Below the pieces are notes generated by a model. The model was not told the origin of the DNA. It ran no database searches and saw nothing but the letters and a program-made list of their open reading frames with translations. Shown piece by piece: positions 55,408 through 64,000 of a DNA stretch of 64,000 nt (position 1 is the stretch's first letter; the number at the start of each line of letters is the position of its first letter). Made by a program: the position numbers and the translations under genes. Source of the DNA: Qipengyuania flava (GTDB lineage Bacteria > Pseudomonadota > Alphaproteobacteria > Sphingomonadales > Sphingomonadaceae); assembly GCF_019448255.1 (NCBI RefSeq), contig NZ_CP080410.1, positions 620,001 to 684,000 of the forward strand, given 5' to 3'.

Positions 55408-57080
55408 ACGCGCCCAACGCATCCGGCTGGAAGCCCGGCACGCCCGTCGAAGGCCACAACGCCATGCACGGTCCCGATACGGCGACCGGCAACCGCGCGC
55501 TCATGCTCGAAGAGCCGCTGATCTTCGAGATCGGTTCCACCGACACGACCGGCGTGGACTTCGAATTCGCAGGCAAGCTGGACCTTGCGGGCGTCGAACA
55601 GCCCACGCCGCCGACGCCGATGAGCGAGACTACGAGCCGCCTCGGCGCCTTCTCACGCACGGACGAGATCGGCCTTCCGGGCCTTACCGAACCGGAAACG
55701 GTGCGCCATTACACGCGCCTCAGCCGTCAGAATTATGCGATCGACCTCGGCCTCTTCCCGCTCGGCTCGTGCACCATGAAGCACAACCCGCGCCTCAACG
55801 AGAAGGTCGCGCGCATGCCCGGCTTTGCCGATGTGCACCCGCTGCAGCCGGTCGACACGGTGCGCGGCGCGCTGGAAGTCGTGAACGAACTCGCCTTCTG
55901 GCTGGTCAAGCTGACCGGCATGCACAGCGTCGCGATGAGCCCCAAGGCGGGCGCGCATGGCGAGTTGTGCGGCATCCTGTGCATCCGCGCCGCGCTCGAG
56001 GCGCGCGGCGATGCGCGCAAGGTCATCCTCGTCCCCGAAAGCGCGCATGGCACCAATCCGGCTACCGCGGCCTTCGCCGGCTACGAGATCGAGGACATTC
56101 CCGCCAATTCGGATGGCCGCGTCGATCTCGACGCGCTGAAGGCCCGCCTCGGCCCCGATGTTGCTGGCGTGATGATCACCAACCCCTCGACGCTCGGCCT
56201 GTTCGAGCGCGACCTGAAGGCGATATCCGACGCGGTCCACGAGGCCGGCGGCTTCGTCTATTGCGACGGCGCGAACTTTAACGCCATCGTCGGCAAGGTC
56301 CGCCCCGGCGACCTCGGTGTCGATGCGATGCACATCAACCTCCACAAGACCTTCTCCACCCCGCACGGTGGCGGCGGTCCGGGTTCCGGCCCCGTGGTCC
56401 TGTCCGAAGCGCTCGCGCCTTTCGGGCCGCTGCCCTACACGGCGCGGACCGAGGACGGGGTGGTCCACCTTGTCGAGGAAGAAGACGCGGTCAGCTTCGC
56501 CGAGGAACACTTCGGCGGACCGCTCCAGCACTTCGGGCGCATGACGGCGTTCCACGGCCAGATGGGCATGTTCACCCGCGCGCTCGCCTATATCCTCAGC
56601 CACGGCGCGGACGGCCTCAAGCAGGTCGCGGAAGACGCCGTGCTAAACGCCAACTACGTCCTGCGTAGCCTCGAGGACGTGCTCGATGCGCCCTTCGGCC
56701 ACAGCGGCCCGTGCATGCATGAAGCCCTGTTCAGCGATAAGGGTTTTGCAGAAGGGCTTTCGACGCTCGACCTTGCCAAGGGGCTGATCGACGAAGGCTA
56801 CCACCCGATGACCATGTACTTCCCGCTGGTGGTGCACGGCGCAATGCTGGTCGAACCGACCGAGACCGAGAGCAAGGCCGCGCTCGACCAGTTCATCACC
56901 GCTCTGCGCAGCGTGGCGGGACGGGCCAAGGCGGGCGATGAAAGCCTCAAGACCGCCCCGCATTACGCTCCGCGCCGCCGCCTCGACGAGACGCTTGCGG
57001 CGAGGAAGCCGGTGCTGGCGTGGAAGGAAGAGGATGTCCCTCCCGGCCAGCCGACCATGAGCGAACAGGGCGGCCGCTAA
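55404..57080 (+). CDS. gcvPB: Glycine dehydrogenase (decarboxylating) subunit 2
   Basis: A 558-residue PLP-bearing subunit, slightly longer than many GcvPB proteins owing to an N-terminal extension of about 40 residues and a proline-rich linker near residue 75. Motifs: [47 protein letters not shown], and [17 protein letters not shown] with the PLP lysine at K315. A C-terminal [18 protein letters not shown]-type region follows. Last gene of the riboswitch-led operon; the 106-bp gap after it probably carries the promoter of the cyclase operon, though no clear hexamers are seen. Confidence 0.95.
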
Positions 57081-57186
57081 GGCGGGAGACGAGGTAAACG
57101 GGGTTGCGGCCAAGCGCCGCTGCTCTAGAACCGACGCATAAGACGACGAAAATCGGGTCGCTCGATACACCGCGGAGGGGGCGGGA

Positions 57187-59283
57187 TTGGGCGAAGGCAA
57201 GGACGACACTCTGCTGATTCGCGGCTGGCGCAATGTGCGCGAGGCCGGGCCGCGTCGTCTTGCGCTCACTGCAGTCCTCATCGTGATCGCGGTCCTCATC
57301 GCGCGCTTCAGTTGGGATATCCCCGCCGAATTCGTGCCGGAAGACATCCGGACCGAGGGCGCCGAACACGTCGATTTGAAAACGCCGGGCACGGGCGATG
57401 CCGAGCGGGCGCTCTACGATCTGCGCAGCTCGCTGCTGGCCGAGCGGATCGAGCAGGACGATCGCATCACCATGGTCGTCTATGATGACCAGACGCTGAT
57501 CGCCGCACGCAAGCGCTCCCCGCTCGACCGGGGCATGCTTGCCGAGGCCCTGCGCGTGATCGACCAGATGGAGCCCAAGGCTATCGGGATCGATATCCTG
57601 TTCGACCAGCCGCAGGACGAGGATGCCGAGCTGATCGAGACACTGCGCGCGATGGAGACGCCTGTTTCGGTTGGCTACGCCAATTTCGCGACGAACGAGA
57701 ACGACATCGTCTACGACCAACAGGTCTATCTCGAAGAGTTCCTCGCCCAGCTCGAAGGCAGCAACGCGCGGCCTGCCAGTATCCGGCTCGATAACACGCA
57801 CGGCGTGACGCGGCGCTGGCCGAGCATCGAGCCCGGCCTGCCGCCGGTTCTCGGCCGAGCGATGCTGGCCGACGCAGGCGAAGAGGAAAAGACCTTTCCC
57901 GGCTATGAGGGCACGCTGCGCTATCGGCACCCCGCCTTCGAAGGCGAGCCGATGTACGTCACCCTTCAGATCGACAATTTCCTCGACGCGGACCTGATGG
58001 CGATCCCCGAGGTGCGCGCCATGCTGCAAGAGCAGATCGAAGGGCGCTATGTCCTCATCGGTGGCGACATCATCGACTACGACCGCGTCCAGACGACCTT
58101 CTCATCGGTGATCGGCGAGAACCCGCCGGGGCTGCGCGTCCATGCCGACATGATCGCGCAGATGCTCGACGAAGACCGGCGGGGCCGGGTAGCTGACCCG
58201 ACCCTGTGGGTCATGGCAATGCTCGTGGTCGTGACGGCAGTCCTTACGGGTCTGCTGGAATGGGGCAGCTGGCGCATCTACGTCCTGCTCGTCGCGCAAT
58301 TCGCCACCTTCATCGGCGTGCCCTTCGTGATGGAATGGCAAGGCGTGGATACGCTCGGCGTGCCGGCTGCCGGATGGCTGTTGGGGTGGATTATCGCCTT
58401 TTCCGCTGTCGTTTCCGCGGCCAGGGCCAGCGGCGCGGTGCAGCGCAATTTCGCGCAAGGCGCGCTGGGCAAATACCTGCCCCGGGAAATGGCCGAGGAA
58501 ATTCTCGAGCACCCGCAGCTGCTCTCGCTCCACGGTGAGAAGAAGGAACTCTACGTCCTTTTCTCCGATCTCGAGGGTTTCACCAAGATGAGCCACGCGA
58601 TCCCGCCGGAGATGGTCGCCAAGCTGCTCAACCGGTATCTCGACATGCTTTCCGACGTCGTGCTCGAGCATGGCGGCGTGATCGACAAATTCGTCGGCGA
58701 TGCCGTGGTGGCTTTCTGGGGCGCTCCGATCGCGCGGCCGGATGATGGCGAACGCGCTGCCAGTTGCGGGTACGCCTTGTGGCAGGCAGGCGAAGCGTTC
58801 CGCGAAGAGGTCGCGGCGATGGATCCGAACCTGCCCAAGATCGGCAAAACGCGCGTCGGGCTGCATTTCGGTGAAGCGGTGGTCGGCAATTTCGGCGGCG
58901 ACAACCGCATCCAGTACACCGCGCTTGGAGACAGCATGAACACCGCAGCCCGGCTTGAGGCGGCAAACAAGGCGCTCGATTCCAGTGTGATGGCGAGCCG
59001 CGAGTTTGCCGATCGTTCGGGGCTAGACTGGTGGCGGCCGATGGGCTGCGTCATACTGCGCGGACGGGCAAAACCAGTCGAGCTGATGGAGCCGGCACCC
59101 GATTTCCCCAAGGAGGATCGGGATCTGCTGGCGCGAGCATACAAGCTTGCGGCGGTTGGCAATGCTACCGCTGTGGACATCGTGCGCGACGTGATCAGCC
59201 GCCATCCGGCTGACAAGGCGCTGGAAAATCTGCTATATCGGATTCAGAATTCGGGTGATGGAGGGGCCTATGTCCTCGGTTAA
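57187..59283 (+). CDS. CHASE2-domain adenylate/guanylate cyclase
   Basis: A 698-residue membrane enzyme. One N-terminal helix (~residues 19-37) is followed by a periplasmic CHASE2 sensor (~60-320, with MVVYDDQTL, PKAIGIDILFDQP, GRYVLIGGDIIDYDRV), then three helices (~340-420) and a cytoplasmic class III cyclase domain. Its metal-binding aspartates are D461 in LFSDLEGFTK and D505 in FVGDAVVAFWGAP, and the base/transition-state region is QYTALGDSMNTAARLE. It starts at TTG 57187 behind GGAGG. It heads an operon of secreted and heme proteins, suggesting that cAMP or cGMP output is tied to conditions in the envelope. ATP or GTP preference cannot be settled by eye. Confidence 0.92.
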   Translation: MGEGKDDTLLIRGWRNVREAGPRRLALTAVLIVIAVLIARFSWDIPAEFVPEDIRTEGAEHVDLKTPGTGDAERALYDLRSSLLAERIEQDDRITMVVYDDQTLIAARKRSPLDRGMLAEALRVIDQMEPKAIGIDILFDQPQDEDAELIETLRAMETPVSVGYANFATNENDIVYDQQVYLEEFLAQLEGSNARPASIRLDNTHGVTRRWPSIEPGLPPVLGRAMLADAGEEEKTFPGYEGTLRYRHPAFEGEPMYVTLQIDNFLDADLMAIPEVRAMLQEQIEGRYVLIGGDIIDYDRVQTTFSSVIGENPPGLRVHADMIAQMLDEDRRGRVADPTLWVMAMLVVVTAVLTGLLEWGSWRIYVLLVAQFATFIGVPFVMEWQGVDTLGVPAAGWLLGWIIAFSAVVSAARASGAVQRNFAQGALGKYLPREMAEEILEHPQLLSLHGEKKELYVLFSDLEGFTKMSHAIPPEMVAKLLNRYLDMLSDVVLEHGGVIDKFVGDAVVAFWGAPIARPDDGERAASCGYALWQAGEAFREEVAAMDPNLPKIGKTRVGLHFGEAVVGNFGGDNRIQYTALGDSMNTAARLEAANKALDSSVMASREFADRSGLDWWRPMGCVILRGRAKPVELMEPAPDFPKEDRDLLARAYKLAAVGNATAVDIVRDVISRHPADKALENLLYRIQNSGDGGAYVLG

Positions 59284-59998
59284 GACGGTTGTTAAGGGCG
59301 CGGCGATGGCGATCGCGGCATTCGGATTCATGGGGAGCGCGCCCGTCCTTGCGGGCGTGGTGGTCAAGTCCAGCGGACCTTCCGCGGCTGATTTCCCTGT
59401 CGGCAAGAAGCTCAACGATGCCTCGAGCATCACGCTCAGGGAAGGGGACAGCGTAACCGTCCTTACGGACAGCGGGACGCGGGTGATCCGCGGGGCGGGG
59501 ACCCACCGGGTCGGAGCGCGCGGCGCCAGCAAACGGACCGCCTTTGCGATGCTGACACGCCAAGGATCGGGCGCACGGGTGCGCACCGGGGCGGTCCGCG
59601 GTGCAGGACCGACTGCGGCGAGCAATCCGAACCTGTGGAACGTCGATGTCACCGCGCAAGACAGCAAGATGTGCCTGCCGGGCGGCGAGACGGTGACCTT
59701 CTGGCGGGCGGACACCGAGGGCGAGGAAACCTGGGTGCTCGGCTCGGCCACGTCCGATTTCCATGTCCATGTGACCTTCGACGAAGGCGATGCGACCGCA
59801 TCGCTTGGCGCCGACGAGCTGCCGCTTACGCCAAGCAGCGCCTACGATCTGTCCGGCCCTGACGGCGGCGGCAAGCGCCGGGTCGAGTTCGTGACCTTGT
59901 CGCCCGTGCCGAACAACGCCGAGGATCTGGCCGTTGCGCTGGCGGAACAGGGATGCGGGGGACAGCTGGACCTGATGAGCGAAAAGCTCGCGAGCTGA
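59270..59998 (+). CDS. Small secreted protein with FecR-like stretch, unknown function
   Basis: A 242-residue protein with a signal peptide (residues 1-28, ending SAPVLA). After it comes SGPSAADFPVGKKLNDASSITLREGDSVTVLTDSGTRVIRG in outline, a short beta region like the FecR-type domain that follows leader peptides in surface or periplasmic proteins. The C-terminal half (PNLWNVDVTAQDSKMCLPGG onward) has no family I recognise. ATG 59270 has GGAG 6 nt upstream and lies 14 bp inside the cyclase gene, so the two are coupled. It may be a partner or signal carrier for the CHASE2 sensor; this is inference. Confidence 0.75.
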   Translation: MSSVKTVVKGAAMAIAAFGFMGSAPVLAGVVVKSSGPSAADFPVGKKLNDASSITLREGDSVTVLTDSGTRVIRGAGTHRVGARGASKRTAFAMLTRQGSGARVRTGAVRGAGPTAASNPNLWNVDVTAQDSKMCLPGGETVTFWRADTEGEETWVLGSATSDFHVHVTFDEGDATASLGADELPLTPSSAYDLSGPDGGGKRRVEFVTLSPVPNNAEDLAVALAEQGCGGQLDLMSEKLAS

Positions 59999-60084
59999 CA
60001 GAATACCGGTGGCCCCGCGGTAACGGGGCATTGGGGTCATGATCCGGGAAATAGCCTGAGACGTGGCCGATTGGGGGAGGACAT

Positions 60085-61488
60085 ATGGGAAGCAGCCAGC
60101 GTGACTGGCACGCACGCAAGGGCGGGTTAACCCGCCTGCTTGCCCTTGCGGTCGCCTTCGTGATCGGCGCGTCTGCCATGAGCGAAACCGGCAGCTCATC
60201 AGCCAAGGCTCAAGGCGCGGGCGCGCGCTTCGAAGGAGTTGCGACCTGCGCCGGTTCGACCTGCCACGGGCGCTCGGAAGGCAATGGGGCGGTCGTGCGC
60301 CAGGACGAAATCGCCACCTGGCAGGAACCCTCTTCGGCAAGCGGCGCGCACAGCCGCGCCTACTCGGTCCTTTCCAGCCGGCGCGGCCAGCAGATTGCGC
60401 GCTCGCTGGGGCTCGGCGCGGCCACCTCGGCGCCGGCTTGCCTCGGATGCCATGCGACCTACGTGCCCCAATCACGGCGCGGGGCGCGGTTCCACACCAG
60501 CGACGGCGTTGGCTGCGAAAGCTGTCATGGCGCCGCCGAAGGCTGGCTGCAGGTCCATTACGAAAAATCGGCCAGCCACGCGTCCAACCTGCGCGCCGGG
60601 CTGACCCCGCTGGAGAACCCGCAAGTACGCGCCAACATCTGCCTCGACTGCCATTACGGCAGCACGAAGACCGGACAGTTCGTGACGCATTCGATGATGG
60701 CGGCGGGCCATCCGCGCATTTCCTTTGAGCTCGACCTCTTCTCCTCGCTCCAGCAGCATCACGACGAAGACGCCGACTACGCCCGCCGCAAGCGCCGCAC
60801 CGACAGCGTGCGCCTGTGGGCCGTCGGCCAGGCCGAAGCCGTGGCCCGCGCGACCGATCTTTTTGCCCGGCCTCGCTTCGGCATGCAGGGGATGTTCCCC
60901 GAATTCTATTTCTACGACTGCCACAGCTGCCACCGCGCGATCACTGACGGCCCTAACCGCAGGCTGACCTTCGAGACCAATCCGGGGCGGCCCATTCCCT
61001 TCGGCAACCCGCCCTTCAACGACGAGAATATCATCATGCTCTCGGCTGTCAGCCGAGCGCTGGCCCCGGGCGCAGGAGAGGACTTCAACGCGGCAAGCGT
61101 CGCCTTCCACCGCGCAATGGGCCGCGATCGGGCCAGCGCCCAGCAAGCGGCACAAGCCCTGCGCGCGCGGGCCCGGGCGCTGTCATCCGCGCTGGCCGCG
61201 CGCAGCTTCGGGAGCGCGGATGCTTATGCGGTGATTGCAACGATCGCTTCCAAGGCCACGGCCCCGCGCTTCACCGACTACGCCGGATCGGTCCAGGCCG
61301 TGATGGCGGTCGACACGCTGCTGAACGCGCTGGTTCGCGATGGCCGCGTAACGGTAGGGGCGGCGGCCGGGATCCGCAGTGATATCAACCGCGCCTATGC
61401 CGCCGTTGCTGCGCCCGAAACCTACCGGCCGGCTGCCTTCCGCAGCGCGCTCGGCACGGCAACTTCCGCCATCGGGGCGCTGCGCTGA
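60085..61488 (+). CDS. Secreted multiheme c-type cytochrome
   Basis: A 467-residue exported protein with an N-terminal hydrophobic segment (~residues 15-32, signal or anchor). Heme motifs: CX4CH in CAGSTCH (~residues 55-61), then CXXCH as CLGCH, CESCH, CLDCH and CHSCH, so up to five hemes in the first two thirds. The order resembles the cytochrome c554/c-prime multiheme fold, with extra His residues (HSRAYS, HPRISFE) available as second axial ligands. The last ~150 residues are helical with no heme motif. GGAGG lies 5 nt before ATG 60085. It would carry electrons in the periplasm; the redox partner is unknown. Confidence 0.88.
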   Translation: MGSSQRDWHARKGGLTRLLALAVAFVIGASAMSETGSSSAKAQGAGARFEGVATCAGSTCHGRSEGNGAVVRQDEIATWQEPSSASGAHSRAYSVLSSRRGQQIARSLGLGAATSAPACLGCHATYVPQSRRGARFHTSDGVGCESCHGAAEGWLQVHYEKSASHASNLRAGLTPLENPQVRANICLDCHYGSTKTGQFVTHSMMAAGHPRISFELDLFSSLQQHHDEDADYARRKRRTDSVRLWAVGQAEAVARATDLFARPRFGMQGMFPEFYFYDCHSCHRAITDGPNRRLTFETNPGRPIPFGNPPFNDENIIMLSAVSRALAPGAGEDFNAASVAFHRAMGRDRASAQQAAQALRARARALSSALAARSFGSADAYAVIATIASKATAPRFTDYAGSVQAVMAVDTLLNALVRDGRVTVGAAAGIRSDINRAYAAVAAPETYRPAAFRSALGTATSAIGALR

Positions 61489-63488
61489 CTCGCCGCCGCG
61501 CCTCGGCCTGCCTTGCCGGCGCGCTGGCGCTGGCGCTGGTGTCGTGCGGTGGCGGAGGGGGATCCTCTAGCGGCGGTTCCGGCGGCGGTACGGGCAGCAG
61601 CGGAGGCGGAAGCTCGGGCGGCGGCACGCCCCCGCCCAGCACCGGCGGCCGCCTGTTCGCCGATCCGGCCCAGCGCTCGCTCTCGGTCGGCGATGTCCAG
61701 CAGATCATCGCGCAGGCCGTGGGGGAGGCGCAGGGGCGCGGCCTGTCGGGCACGATCGCGGTCGTGGACCGGGTGGGCAATGTGCTCGGCGTCTTCGTAA
61801 TGACCGGCTCACCTGCGACGACGCGGATTAGCCGCCGGACCATCGACGGAATTGCGCCATCGGGCAGCGAGGTTGGCCTGCAAGGTGTCGAGGTGCCCAC
61901 CGTTGCGGCGGCGATCGCCAAGGCCATCACCGGGGCCTATCTGTCGAGCAGCGGCAACGCTTTCTCCACGCGAACCGCCAGCCAGATCGTTCAGGAACAC
62001 TTCCCGCCAGCCGCCTCGACCGTGGGCCTGGAAAGCGGCCCGCTGTTCGGTGTCCAGTTCAGCCAGCTGCCCTGCTCGGACCTGTCGGCGCGGATGAGCG
62101 ACGGGATGATCGGACCGCAACGCTCGCCGCTTGGCCTTTCGGCCGATCCCGGAGGCTTCCCGCTCTACAAGGACGGGGTGGTCGTCGGCGGCATCGGTGT
62201 TGCAGGCGACGGCGTCTACGGTTTCCACCCGGACACGATCAACCGCGACCGGGACGACGAGGAATACGCCGCCCTTGCGGGTACGCAGAATTTCACCCCG
62301 CCGCGCTGGATCGAAGCCGACCGGATACCGGTGGACGGCACCAGCCTGCGGTATCGCGACGCCGCCGCCAGCGAGCTCGGGCCTCTTCAGACCAGTTTCG
62401 GAGCCGTGAACGGCCCCGCCGGCGGTCTCGTTTCGGTGTTCGGCTACACCAACGGGGCCATCCGCGCGGGCGTGGCTTACGGAACGAATGCCTCGGGTAT
62501 CCGGCGCAGCACATCGAGCGAGTTCGCAAATCCGGATGCCTATGTGCTGGTCAACGGGGCAGGGGCACCGCGCTTCCCGATCCGCGGGGGCACGGATGGC
62601 GCCAGCATCAGCGCTCCGCTGAGCGCCGCGGAAGTGCGCGCCGTGCTGGAAGAGGCCTTCACCGTACTCAGCCGCGCGCGGGCCCAGATCCGCCGCCCCC
62701 TGGACAGCCGGATGCAGGCGACGATCAGCCTCGTCGATACGCACGGCGCGGTGCTCGGCATCGTGCGGTCGCCCGATGGCCCGATCTTCGGGACGGACGT
62801 CTCGCTCCAGAAGGCGCGCACAGCCGCGTTCTTCTCCAATTCGGTGGCGGCCGGGGACATGCAGGCTGCGGGGCCCACCATCGCCCGCTACGTAACCCGG
62901 GTGCGCGATTTCCTCGGCGATGGGAGCGCCCTGACCGGTACCTTCGCCTTCGCCGACCGGTCGGGTGGCAACCTGTCGCGGCCCTATTTCCCTGATGGCG
63001 AGGTCGGCACCATCGCGGGACCCTTGTCGGTGGAACGGCCGGGCCAGTTCAGCCCCTTCATGACCGGGCTGCAGACCGACCTCATCATCCCGAACCTCTT
63101 CCAGCACCTCGGCTTCGTGATCTCGGGCGGGGGCAGCGCCGACACGCCGCGCGGCTGCACGCAACTGCCCGATGCACCCGGCGGCGGGAAGCGTGTGGGC
63201 AACGGCATCCAGATTTTCCCGGGCTCTGTCCCGATCTACCGCGGCAATGAGCTTGTCGGCGGGATCGGGGTGTCGGGCGACGGGATCGACCAGGACGACA
63301 TGGTCAGCTTCCTCGGTCTTCACAACGCGGGCCAGCGCGTTGGCGGGATCGGCAACGCGCGCGTCGAAATCCGCGCAGACCGGATCGTGGTCAACGTGAA
63401 CGGGCGCGATGTGCGCCTGCGCTACGTGAATTGCCCCTTCGCGCCGTTCCTCGACGATCCGGCGCAGAACGTCTGCGAGGGGCTGTGA
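61485..63488 (+). CDS. Lipoprotein with two HbpS/GlcG-like (heme-binding) domains
   Basis: A protein of about 667 residues. The only start giving a membrane-targeting signal is CTG 61485, overlapping the cytochrome stop as CTGA; it yields TRRRASACLAGALALALVSC, with basic n-region, hydrophobic core and LVSC lipobox. The next usual start, GTG 61539, would cut away this signal just before the Cys. A Gly/Ser-rich linker follows, then two domains of the HbpS/GlcG (DUF336) type, each with a 'helix, then TIxxVDxxGxVLG' unit: IAVVDRVGNVLG and ISLVDTHGAVLG. HbpS members bind heme or iron extracellularly. Heme storage or delivery to the neighbouring cytochrome is inference. Confidence 0.8.
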   Translation: MTRRRASACLAGALALALVSCGGGGGSSSGGSGGGTGSSGGGSSGGGTPPPSTGGRLFADPAQRSLSVGDVQQIIAQAVGEAQGRGLSGTIAVVDRVGNVLGVFVMTGSPATTRISRRTIDGIAPSGSEVGLQGVEVPTVAAAIAKAITGAYLSSSGNAFSTRTASQIVQEHFPPAASTVGLESGPLFGVQFSQLPCSDLSARMSDGMIGPQRSPLGLSADPGGFPLYKDGVVVGGIGVAGDGVYGFHPDTINRDRDDEEYAALAGTQNFTPPRWIEADRIPVDGTSLRYRDAAASELGPLQTSFGAVNGPAGGLVSVFGYTNGAIRAGVAYGTNASGIRRSTSSEFANPDAYVLVNGAGAPRFPIRGGTDGASISAPLSAAEVRAVLEEAFTVLSRARAQIRRPLDSRMQATISLVDTHGAVLGIVRSPDGPIFGTDVSLQKARTAAFFSNSVAAGDMQAAGPTIARYVTRVRDFLGDGSALTGTFAFADRSGGNLSRPYFPDGEVGTIAGPLSVERPGQFSPFMTGLQTDLIIPNLFQHLGFVISGGGSADTPRGCTQLPDAPGGGKRVGNGIQIFPGSVPIYRGNELVGGIGVSGDGIDQDDMVSFLGLHNAGQRVGGIGNARVEIRADRIVVNVNGRDVRLRYVNCPFAPFLDDPAQNVCEGL

Positions 63489-64000
63489 TGCTGGCGGGCG
63501 CTTTCATGCCGCTGGCGCTGGTGGTCGCAGCGCAGCAGGAACTGCCGCCGCAGGAAGAACCGGCCAGCGAGTTGCCGACCGTCAATCCCGAACCGGGCGA
63601 GCCGCCTGCCGTCGACAACGAAGTGATCGATGGCCGCCGTCGCCCCGATTACACCGAACCTTTGCCGGACGAGGTCTCGCAGACAAACGAGGGCGCGGTG
63701 CGCGCCCCGCCGCCCGAAGCCTTTCCCGTCGATCAGATCCCGATCCCGGACCGCTGGCGGCTGATCGAAAGCCTTGGCGTGGTCAAGGAACGCTGGTGGG
63801 ACCCCTACAACCAGAACACCTACAAAGGCGACCGGCCGATCAATCCGGACAAGGTCCCCTGGCTGCCGATCACCGGCGACGACTGGTTCTTCATTGCCAA
63901 TGCGGTGAGCGACACGGTGTTCGAACCGCGCACCTTCCCGATCCCCGTCGGCGTGCAGACCACCGAGCGCCCCGACAGCCTCGACGTTTTCGGCAAGGAT
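63488..64000 (+). CDS. Secreted, probably outer-membrane protein, 5' part
   Basis: The first 171 residues of a gene running off the right edge. A short signal peptide (MLAGAFMPLALVVAAQQ) is followed by a proline/glutamate-rich spacer (~residues 18-75) and then a conserved-looking start: DRWRLIESLGVVKERWWDPYNQNTYKGDRPI and DWFFIANAVSDTVFEPRTFPIPVG in outline. 'DPYNQN..KGD.P' openings are seen in large outer-membrane beta-barrel-like proteins of several phyla, which is the best guess. ATG 63488 shares a base with the lipoprotein stop (TGATG), so it belongs to the same operon. Confidence 0.7.
   Translation, partial: MLAGAFMPLALVVAAQQELPPQEEPASELPTVNPEPGEPPAVDNEVIDGRRRPDYTEPLPDEVSQTNEGAVRAPPPEAFPVDQIPIPDRWRLIESLGVVKERWWDPYNQNTYKGDRPINPDKVPWLPITGDDWFFIANAVSDTVFEPRTFPIPVGVQTTERPDSLDVFGKD

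Follow-up and report, generated by a model that had tools for sequence, protein, structure and literature searches.

The five genes at the right end of the stretch analysed are the left half of a block of about 11 genes that is present or absent as a whole among close relatives. With about even confidence, this block is read here as encoding a cAMP-controlled conduit that is equipped with its own cyclase (CYC), reader (FCF) and likely eraser (MPE) and through which NAD(P)H electrons would reach the cell surface. Its gene content, motifs and all-or-none inheritance are documented below. To our knowledge, most envelope electron conduits on record come from metal-respiring bacteria, and work on how they are controlled has addressed transcription. 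The block occurs widely among aerobic Erythrobacteraceae and in other Sphingomonadales; if the reading is true, FCF would act on electron loss from the cell as a direct allosteric valve. The all-or-none presence of the block among close relatives provides natural strain pairs for comparison.

Layout of the block

The window (the whole stretch of 64,000 nucleotides that was analysed, C1:620001-684000) lies in a single-contig genome of 2.85 Mb, and its end interrupts the operon. The block spans about 19 kb, from the end of gcvPB (57081) to approximately 76525, and its second half (64000-76525) is located beyond the window (Table 1). Most of its genes are annotated as hypothetical. The sequence-only reading had described five genes on the same strand, and these were reproduced together with their junctions, i.e., 14 nt shared by CYC and SEC (59270-59283), 4 nt by MHC5 and HBP (61485-61488), and one base by HBP and OMP (63488). 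The OMP and MHC10L genes also have one base in common (65338). The description as a five-gene operon stood as far as the genes are concerned, but the unit is about twice as large, with the reader and the likely eraser outside the window. Between SEC and MHC5 there is an intergenic gap of 86 bp, in which a terminator scan found none and the hairpin was no stronger than in shuffled sequence (z -1.35). Recent foreign acquisition of the block was rejected, its GC content (0.655) being that of the surroundings (0.653).

Table 1. Features of the block and its boundaries, numbered from the first nucleotide of the window
Feature	Description	Position	Strand or orientation	Evidence
Left boundary	left boundary of indel unit	57081..57186	+	gcvPB stop at 57080; empty sites in 26 congeneric genomes
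CYC	CHASE2 class III adenylate cyclase	57187..59283	+	Pfam, residue alignment, hydropathy
SEC	secreted two-domain beta protein	59270..59998	+	AlphaFold model; follows CYC in every genome read
MHC5	periplasmic pentaheme cytochrome, cytochrome c554-like	60085..61488	+	Pfam, heme motifs, 1bvb match
HBP	lipoprotein with two HbpS/GlcG-like domains	61485..63488	+	Pfam; CTG start
OMP	predicted outer-membrane barrel, 616 aa	63488..65338 (window edge 64000)	+	structure model
MHC10L	decaheme cytochrome with C-terminal LVIVD repeats, 1372 aa	65338-69456		10 CXXCH
MPE	metallophosphoesterase, CpdA/SpdA-like	~69460-70332	convergent to MHC10L	Metallophos superfamily match
FHAM	decaheme membrane cytochrome with FHA-like N-terminus	70346-72109	convergent to MHC10L	10 CXXCH, one TM
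CYTB	di-heme-b-type membrane protein	72120-73019	convergent to MHC10L	WX3HX13H motifs
FCF	flavoprotein with two cNMP-binding and ferredoxin domains	73016-75466	convergent to MHC10L	Pfam
TPR gene	last gene of block	75551-76525	divergent	
Right boundary	right boundary of indel unit	~76525	before flippase gene 76522-77790	empty sites in 26 congeneric genomes

Inheritance and distribution

Among 41 Qipengyuania genomes, CYC and MHC10L are both present in five and both absent from 35; the single remaining genome, a 75%-complete MAG, contains a partial CYC only. The gcvPB locus was read in 30 genomes, four with and 26 without the block. In the four carriers CYC starts 101-110 bp past gcvPB, and in all 26 block-less sites a flippase, nucleotidyltransferase or DUF gene follows within ~120 bp, these being the genes found past 76522 in the present genome. 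On a gcvPB tree, which represents a single gene beside the block site and could be distorted by recombination, the block needs four independent changes of state, each forced by well-supported branches. From the empty sites and this tree, CYC, SEC, the cytochromes, MPE, FHAM, CYTB, FCF and the TPR gene appear to be gained or lost as one.

The neighbourhood search across Sphingomonadales that had been proposed as a check bore out the conservation. Across 19 genera of the family, 20 clusters were compared, and MHC5, OMP and MHC10L occur together without exception, OMP immediately precedes MHC10L in each, and HBP is present in 19; the MPE-FHAM-CYTB-FCF set is found in most of them. Heme counts are constant, i.e., 10 in MHC10L in 20/20 and 10 in FHAM in all 14 found. 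The order was sampled with 248 genomes. A CYC orthologue, defined by an identity of 43% or more, occurs in 46 of the 55 with MHC10L versus 9 of the 193 without it (Fisher P=9e-32, uncorrected for phylogeny), and 29 of 36 same-contig CYC-MHC10L pairs lie within 30 kb. The exceptions comprise nine MHC10L genomes without and nine non-MHC10L genomes with a CYC orthologue. A different class III cyclase lies close to some of the clusters that lack the orthologue, of CHASE2 type in G178 and G104 and of GAF/PAS type in G059; G205 has a homologue of 31% identity ~9 kb away. The cyclase was seen in 5/20 stretches, but its reading as a labile add-on was rejected because the 20-kb stretches are too short, with the orthologue 9-27 kb off in many genera. 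The view that the cyclase belongs with the cytochromes thus gains from their all-or-none presence at one chromosomal site and their order-wide co-occurrence, and a chance neighbourhood is rejected on the empty sites, the tree and the co-occurrence.

Relatives of CYTB were found in 561 genome-contig stretches. The best 80 of these 561 are from Sphingomonadales or unclassified alphaproteobacterial MAGs, including Qipengyuania flava and Erythrobacter dokdonensis, and contain FCF with CYTB in 80, FHAM in 79 and MPE in 75. Distant Pseudomonadota retain FCF-CYTB-FHAM, and the stretches read there gave no match to a cyclase, which is counted against the model proposed below.

Signalling components

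CYC matches CHASE2 (E=1.5e-25) and Guanylate_cyc (E=3.8e-12) in Pfam, and hydropathy places hydrophobic helices around residues 25-43 and 339-412. An alignment of 22 cyclases shows its catalytic residues to be intact (two metal Asp, K, T, N, R). The motifs FSDLEGFT, DKFVGDA and YTALGDSMNTAAR are conserved, so that the class III metal, adenine-selecting and transition-state residues are all present, with K/T as the adenine-selecting pair. The roles of these residues are well established for class III cyclases. The genome contains just two PF00211 matches, of which CYC is one; three further CHASE2 proteins are encoded (C1:1873436, C1:471491 and C1:823515), the first of which alone also matches PF00211.

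SEC, the gene directly after CYC in all genomes read, matches no family in Pfam, and a FecR assignment was rejected (0/20 members match). Structure prediction, likewise proposed earlier as a check for SEC and OMP, yielded for SEC two beta domains (mean pLDDT 80) with no confident match among PDB folds, and at most weak Ig/cupredoxin-like ones. In several genera CYC-SEC is followed by a two-partner secretion pair, ShlB/FhaC plus a candidate exoprotein of 1800-2900 aa (L170 8004-15214; L172 4525-13790; L178 312-7801). For L170 and L172, Pfam confirms the ShlB part; in several genera the pair is placed between CYC-SEC and MHC5. One genome, G212, has CYC-SEC and the secretion pair without MHC10L. 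Small membrane proteins with a C-terminal cNMP-binding domain were also observed (L177 7917-8573; L179 12604-13254; L050 2561-3235; L054 2352-3029). They adjoin CYC-SEC in genus g13 and elsewhere lie upstream of MHC5, with FCF not found nearby; Pfam confirms the domain in L177 and L050, the latter with an additional weak POPDC match.

FCF has Pfam matches to Pyr_redox, two cNMP_binding domains (E=1.4e-31) and Fer4_11 (E=1.5e-11). Homologues from five distant genomes, at 43-66% identity, retain the phosphate-binding E...R signature in each cNMP domain, the two GxGxxG motifs and the cysteines of the Fe-S sites. Judged by homology, MPE is likely the eraser of the cyclic nucleotide; its nearest NCBIfam models are SpdA (144 bits, cut-off 400) and CpdA (79 bits, cut-off 225), and it falls below both cut-offs. 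SpdA substrates are 2',3'-cNMPs, which counts against MPE as an eraser of cAMP.

Electron-transfer components

MHC5 matches Cytochrome_C554 in Pfam (E=1.5e-11) and 1bvb in the PDB (E=1e-5), and its four CXXCH and one CX4CH motifs are invariant across 21 homologues. HBP matches HbpS-like in four stretches (E=6e-19). Since no ATG, GTG or TTG occurs upstream of its lipobox, CTG is the only start that retains the signal peptide, and the 4-nt overlap with MHC5 requires it. Relatives of HBP have ordinary starts assigned close to the same MHC5/HBP junction. The CHASE2, cyclase, heme cytochrome and HbpS-like assignments of the sequence-only reading are thus upheld by Pfam matches and heme motifs, while its suggestion of heme sensing found no supporting evidence.

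CYTB contains WX3HX13H twice (W101/H105/H119 and W273/H277/H291) and SGXXG as SGAYG at 142; the W and H residues of the motifs are invariant in 14 homologues, and among distant homologues both WX3HX13H copies are present in 5/5 and SGXXG in 4/5. The inner-membrane protein of PCC4 subgroup II, discussed below, is described with five transmembrane helices; in CYTB a simple hydropathy scan gave four clear ones, and the motif helix at ~103-121 scored under threshold. The FHA-like region of FHAM, which has 10 CXXCH and one TM, is below the Pfam cut-off. FCF abuts CYTB, and the two are fused in two distant genomes of Pseudomonadota (1120 aa; L076 3052-6423; L077/L078 in G280). At these fusion loci a 9-heme FHAM homologue adjoins, with no matching porin in the stretch read.

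OMP is supported as an outer-membrane protein by its predicted barrel, of 18 strands with AlgE as best match, although the model is of low confidence (mean pLDDT 59). An MtrB-type sheath was rejected on the AlgE-like model, and no match to the MtrB families was found in Pfam. With 18 strands, against 26-28 in MtrB, the predicted barrel seems too narrow to enclose a decaheme wire in the MtrB manner, which makes the outer-membrane step the weakest link of the conduit model. For MHC10L, a sequence search of the PDB gave no match, and the best NCBIfam model is ExtM of the Geobacter selenite/tellurite cluster, at 69 bits versus a cut-off of 800. The encoded parts reach from the cytoplasm through the inner membrane and periplasm to the outer membrane, in agreement with the envelope-spanning set proposed earlier.

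Relation to described systems

The closest described relative is PCC4, one of the computational porin-cytochrome clusters (PCC3/PCC4) of He et al. 2017, as presented in the main text (PMC5566968). Common to both are a porin, several multiheme cytochromes and an inner-membrane protein with WX3HX13H twice and SGXXG, a motif set that the main text gives for PCC3/PCC4 and relates to two b hemes. In PCC4 subgroup II and in the block alike, a pfam13247 iron-sulfur gene (here FCF) is located directly upstream of the inner-membrane gene (here CYTB), the two being fused in some members. The subgroup is described with three periplasmic cytochromes of 4, 5 and 10 hemes, none extracellular, whereas the block has 5, 10 and 10. 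Most of the features compared agree with PCC4, and the block would work like a porin-cytochrome conduit, but it was not filed as PCC4 because of these differing heme numbers, the PCC4 members being compared by description rather than by sequence. PCC3 is described with 22-39 residues per heme, compared with approximately 137 in MHC10L, 59 in FHAM and 93 in MHC5, and the block is not assigned to PCC3 either. That main text does not name the cyclase, the phosphodiesterase, the HbpS lipoprotein, the LVIVD decaheme or the FHA-decaheme, nor do cNMP or cyclic nucleotides appear in it; its supplementary domain figure may show such domains. The sequence-only reading had seen no match to a described system. 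This was too strong for the inner-membrane part, but the cyclic-nucleotide layer is new relative to the PCC systems as described there.

With Sinorhizobium meliloti CyaD1/D2/K and SpdA, the block shares alphaproteobacterial CHASE2 class III cyclases and an SpdA-type phosphodiesterase, and the signal relay there uses an outer-membrane barrel, NsrA; its output, however, is transcription through Clr, with no cytochromes or cNMP-binding oxidoreductase described alongside (PMC13001267, PMC4222275). The Geobacter ext cluster (ExtI/ExtM) likewise has a porin-like protein, multiheme cytochromes and a b-type cytochrome, but its inner-membrane part is of Rieske/bc type and no cyclic-nucleotide genes are described (PMC5877670). 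OMP gave no match to the ExtI model, and with MHC10L far under the ExtM cut-off the block is not assigned to the Ext clusters. The general plan of inner-membrane input, periplasmic and surface cytochromes and a barrel is shared with Shewanella MtrCAB as outlined in the main text of PMC5566968. A search of the papers available for this analysis found none on cNMP-binding multiheme or FHA systems or on multiheme conduits in Sphingomonadales.

Proposed mechanism and alternative explanations

In the proposed model, a periplasmic signal would act on the CHASE2 domain of CYC, possibly via SEC, and cAMP from CYC would bind the two cNMP domains of the cytoplasmic FAD/NAD(P)/multi-[4Fe-4S] protein FCF and set its activity. 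NAD(P)H would reduce FCF, and electrons would pass from its iron-sulfur domain to the hemes of CYTB, then to FHAM as an FHA-anchored periplasmic decaheme, to MHC5, and finally to the surface pair OMP/MHC10L. MPE would remove the cyclic nucleotide and reset FCF. What we infer is the sequence of carriers, the direction in which electrons move, cAMP as the ligand, and control that is direct rather than transcriptional. A self-contained circuit, in which the cNMP domains of FCF switch NAD(P)H-to-surface electron export directly and without transcription, is proposed tentatively, at less than even confidence; cAMP may act through the ordinary CRP route.

Electrons could also flow inward, as proposed for PCC4, from an outside donor such as Fe(II) or Mn(II) via MHC10L/OMP/MHC5 to FHAM, CYTB and the quinone pool, with cAMP only tuning the flow. 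The features shared with PCC4 subgroup II (inner-membrane motifs, the pfam13247 gene directly upstream, porin, several multiheme cytochromes) point this way, as does an Erythrobacter Mn oxidiser among the PCC3 carriers named in the main text (PMC5566968); the FAD and NAD(P) Rossmann motifs of cytoplasmic FCF argue for input from NAD(P)H rather than quinone, and the heme numbers differ, which leaves this direction doubtful. That MHC10L is the terminal enzyme of a system for reduction or detoxification at the surface or in the periplasm, with OMP as an AlgE-like channel for substrate or product, is considered unlikely. It would agree with the AlgE-like barrel model, with ExtM as best match and with the sparse hemes of MHC10L, unlike those of wire-type cytochromes, but the ExtM score is far under its cut-off, the Ext partners (rhodanese, Rieske) are missing from the block, and the OMP model is of low confidence.

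A further alternative separates the two halves of the proposed model, with CYC-SEC a signalling pair that merely adjoins the cytochromes and cAMP acting via CRP elsewhere. The gap ahead of MHC5, the other neighbours of CYC-SEC (the secretion pair or a cNMP-binding membrane protein) in other genera, and the nine genomes with CYC-SEC but without MHC10L are consistent with it. It is nevertheless very improbable given four independent joint gain/loss events with the cytochromes at one site, the CYC-MHC10L association across the order, and a block that itself holds a cNMP-binding reader and a phosphodiesterase.

Plasmid carriage and adjoining genes

In Sphingobium, the block is carried on plasmids of roughly 0.9-1.3 Mb (L161, L162, hits H1-H25), one of which is typed as conjugative. 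MHC10L is also located on a plasmid in Sphingopyxis indica. Immediately after the cytochrome operon of G059 (L051 13210-16135) come genes that by eye resemble ccmH, ccmG and ccmF of cytochrome c maturation.
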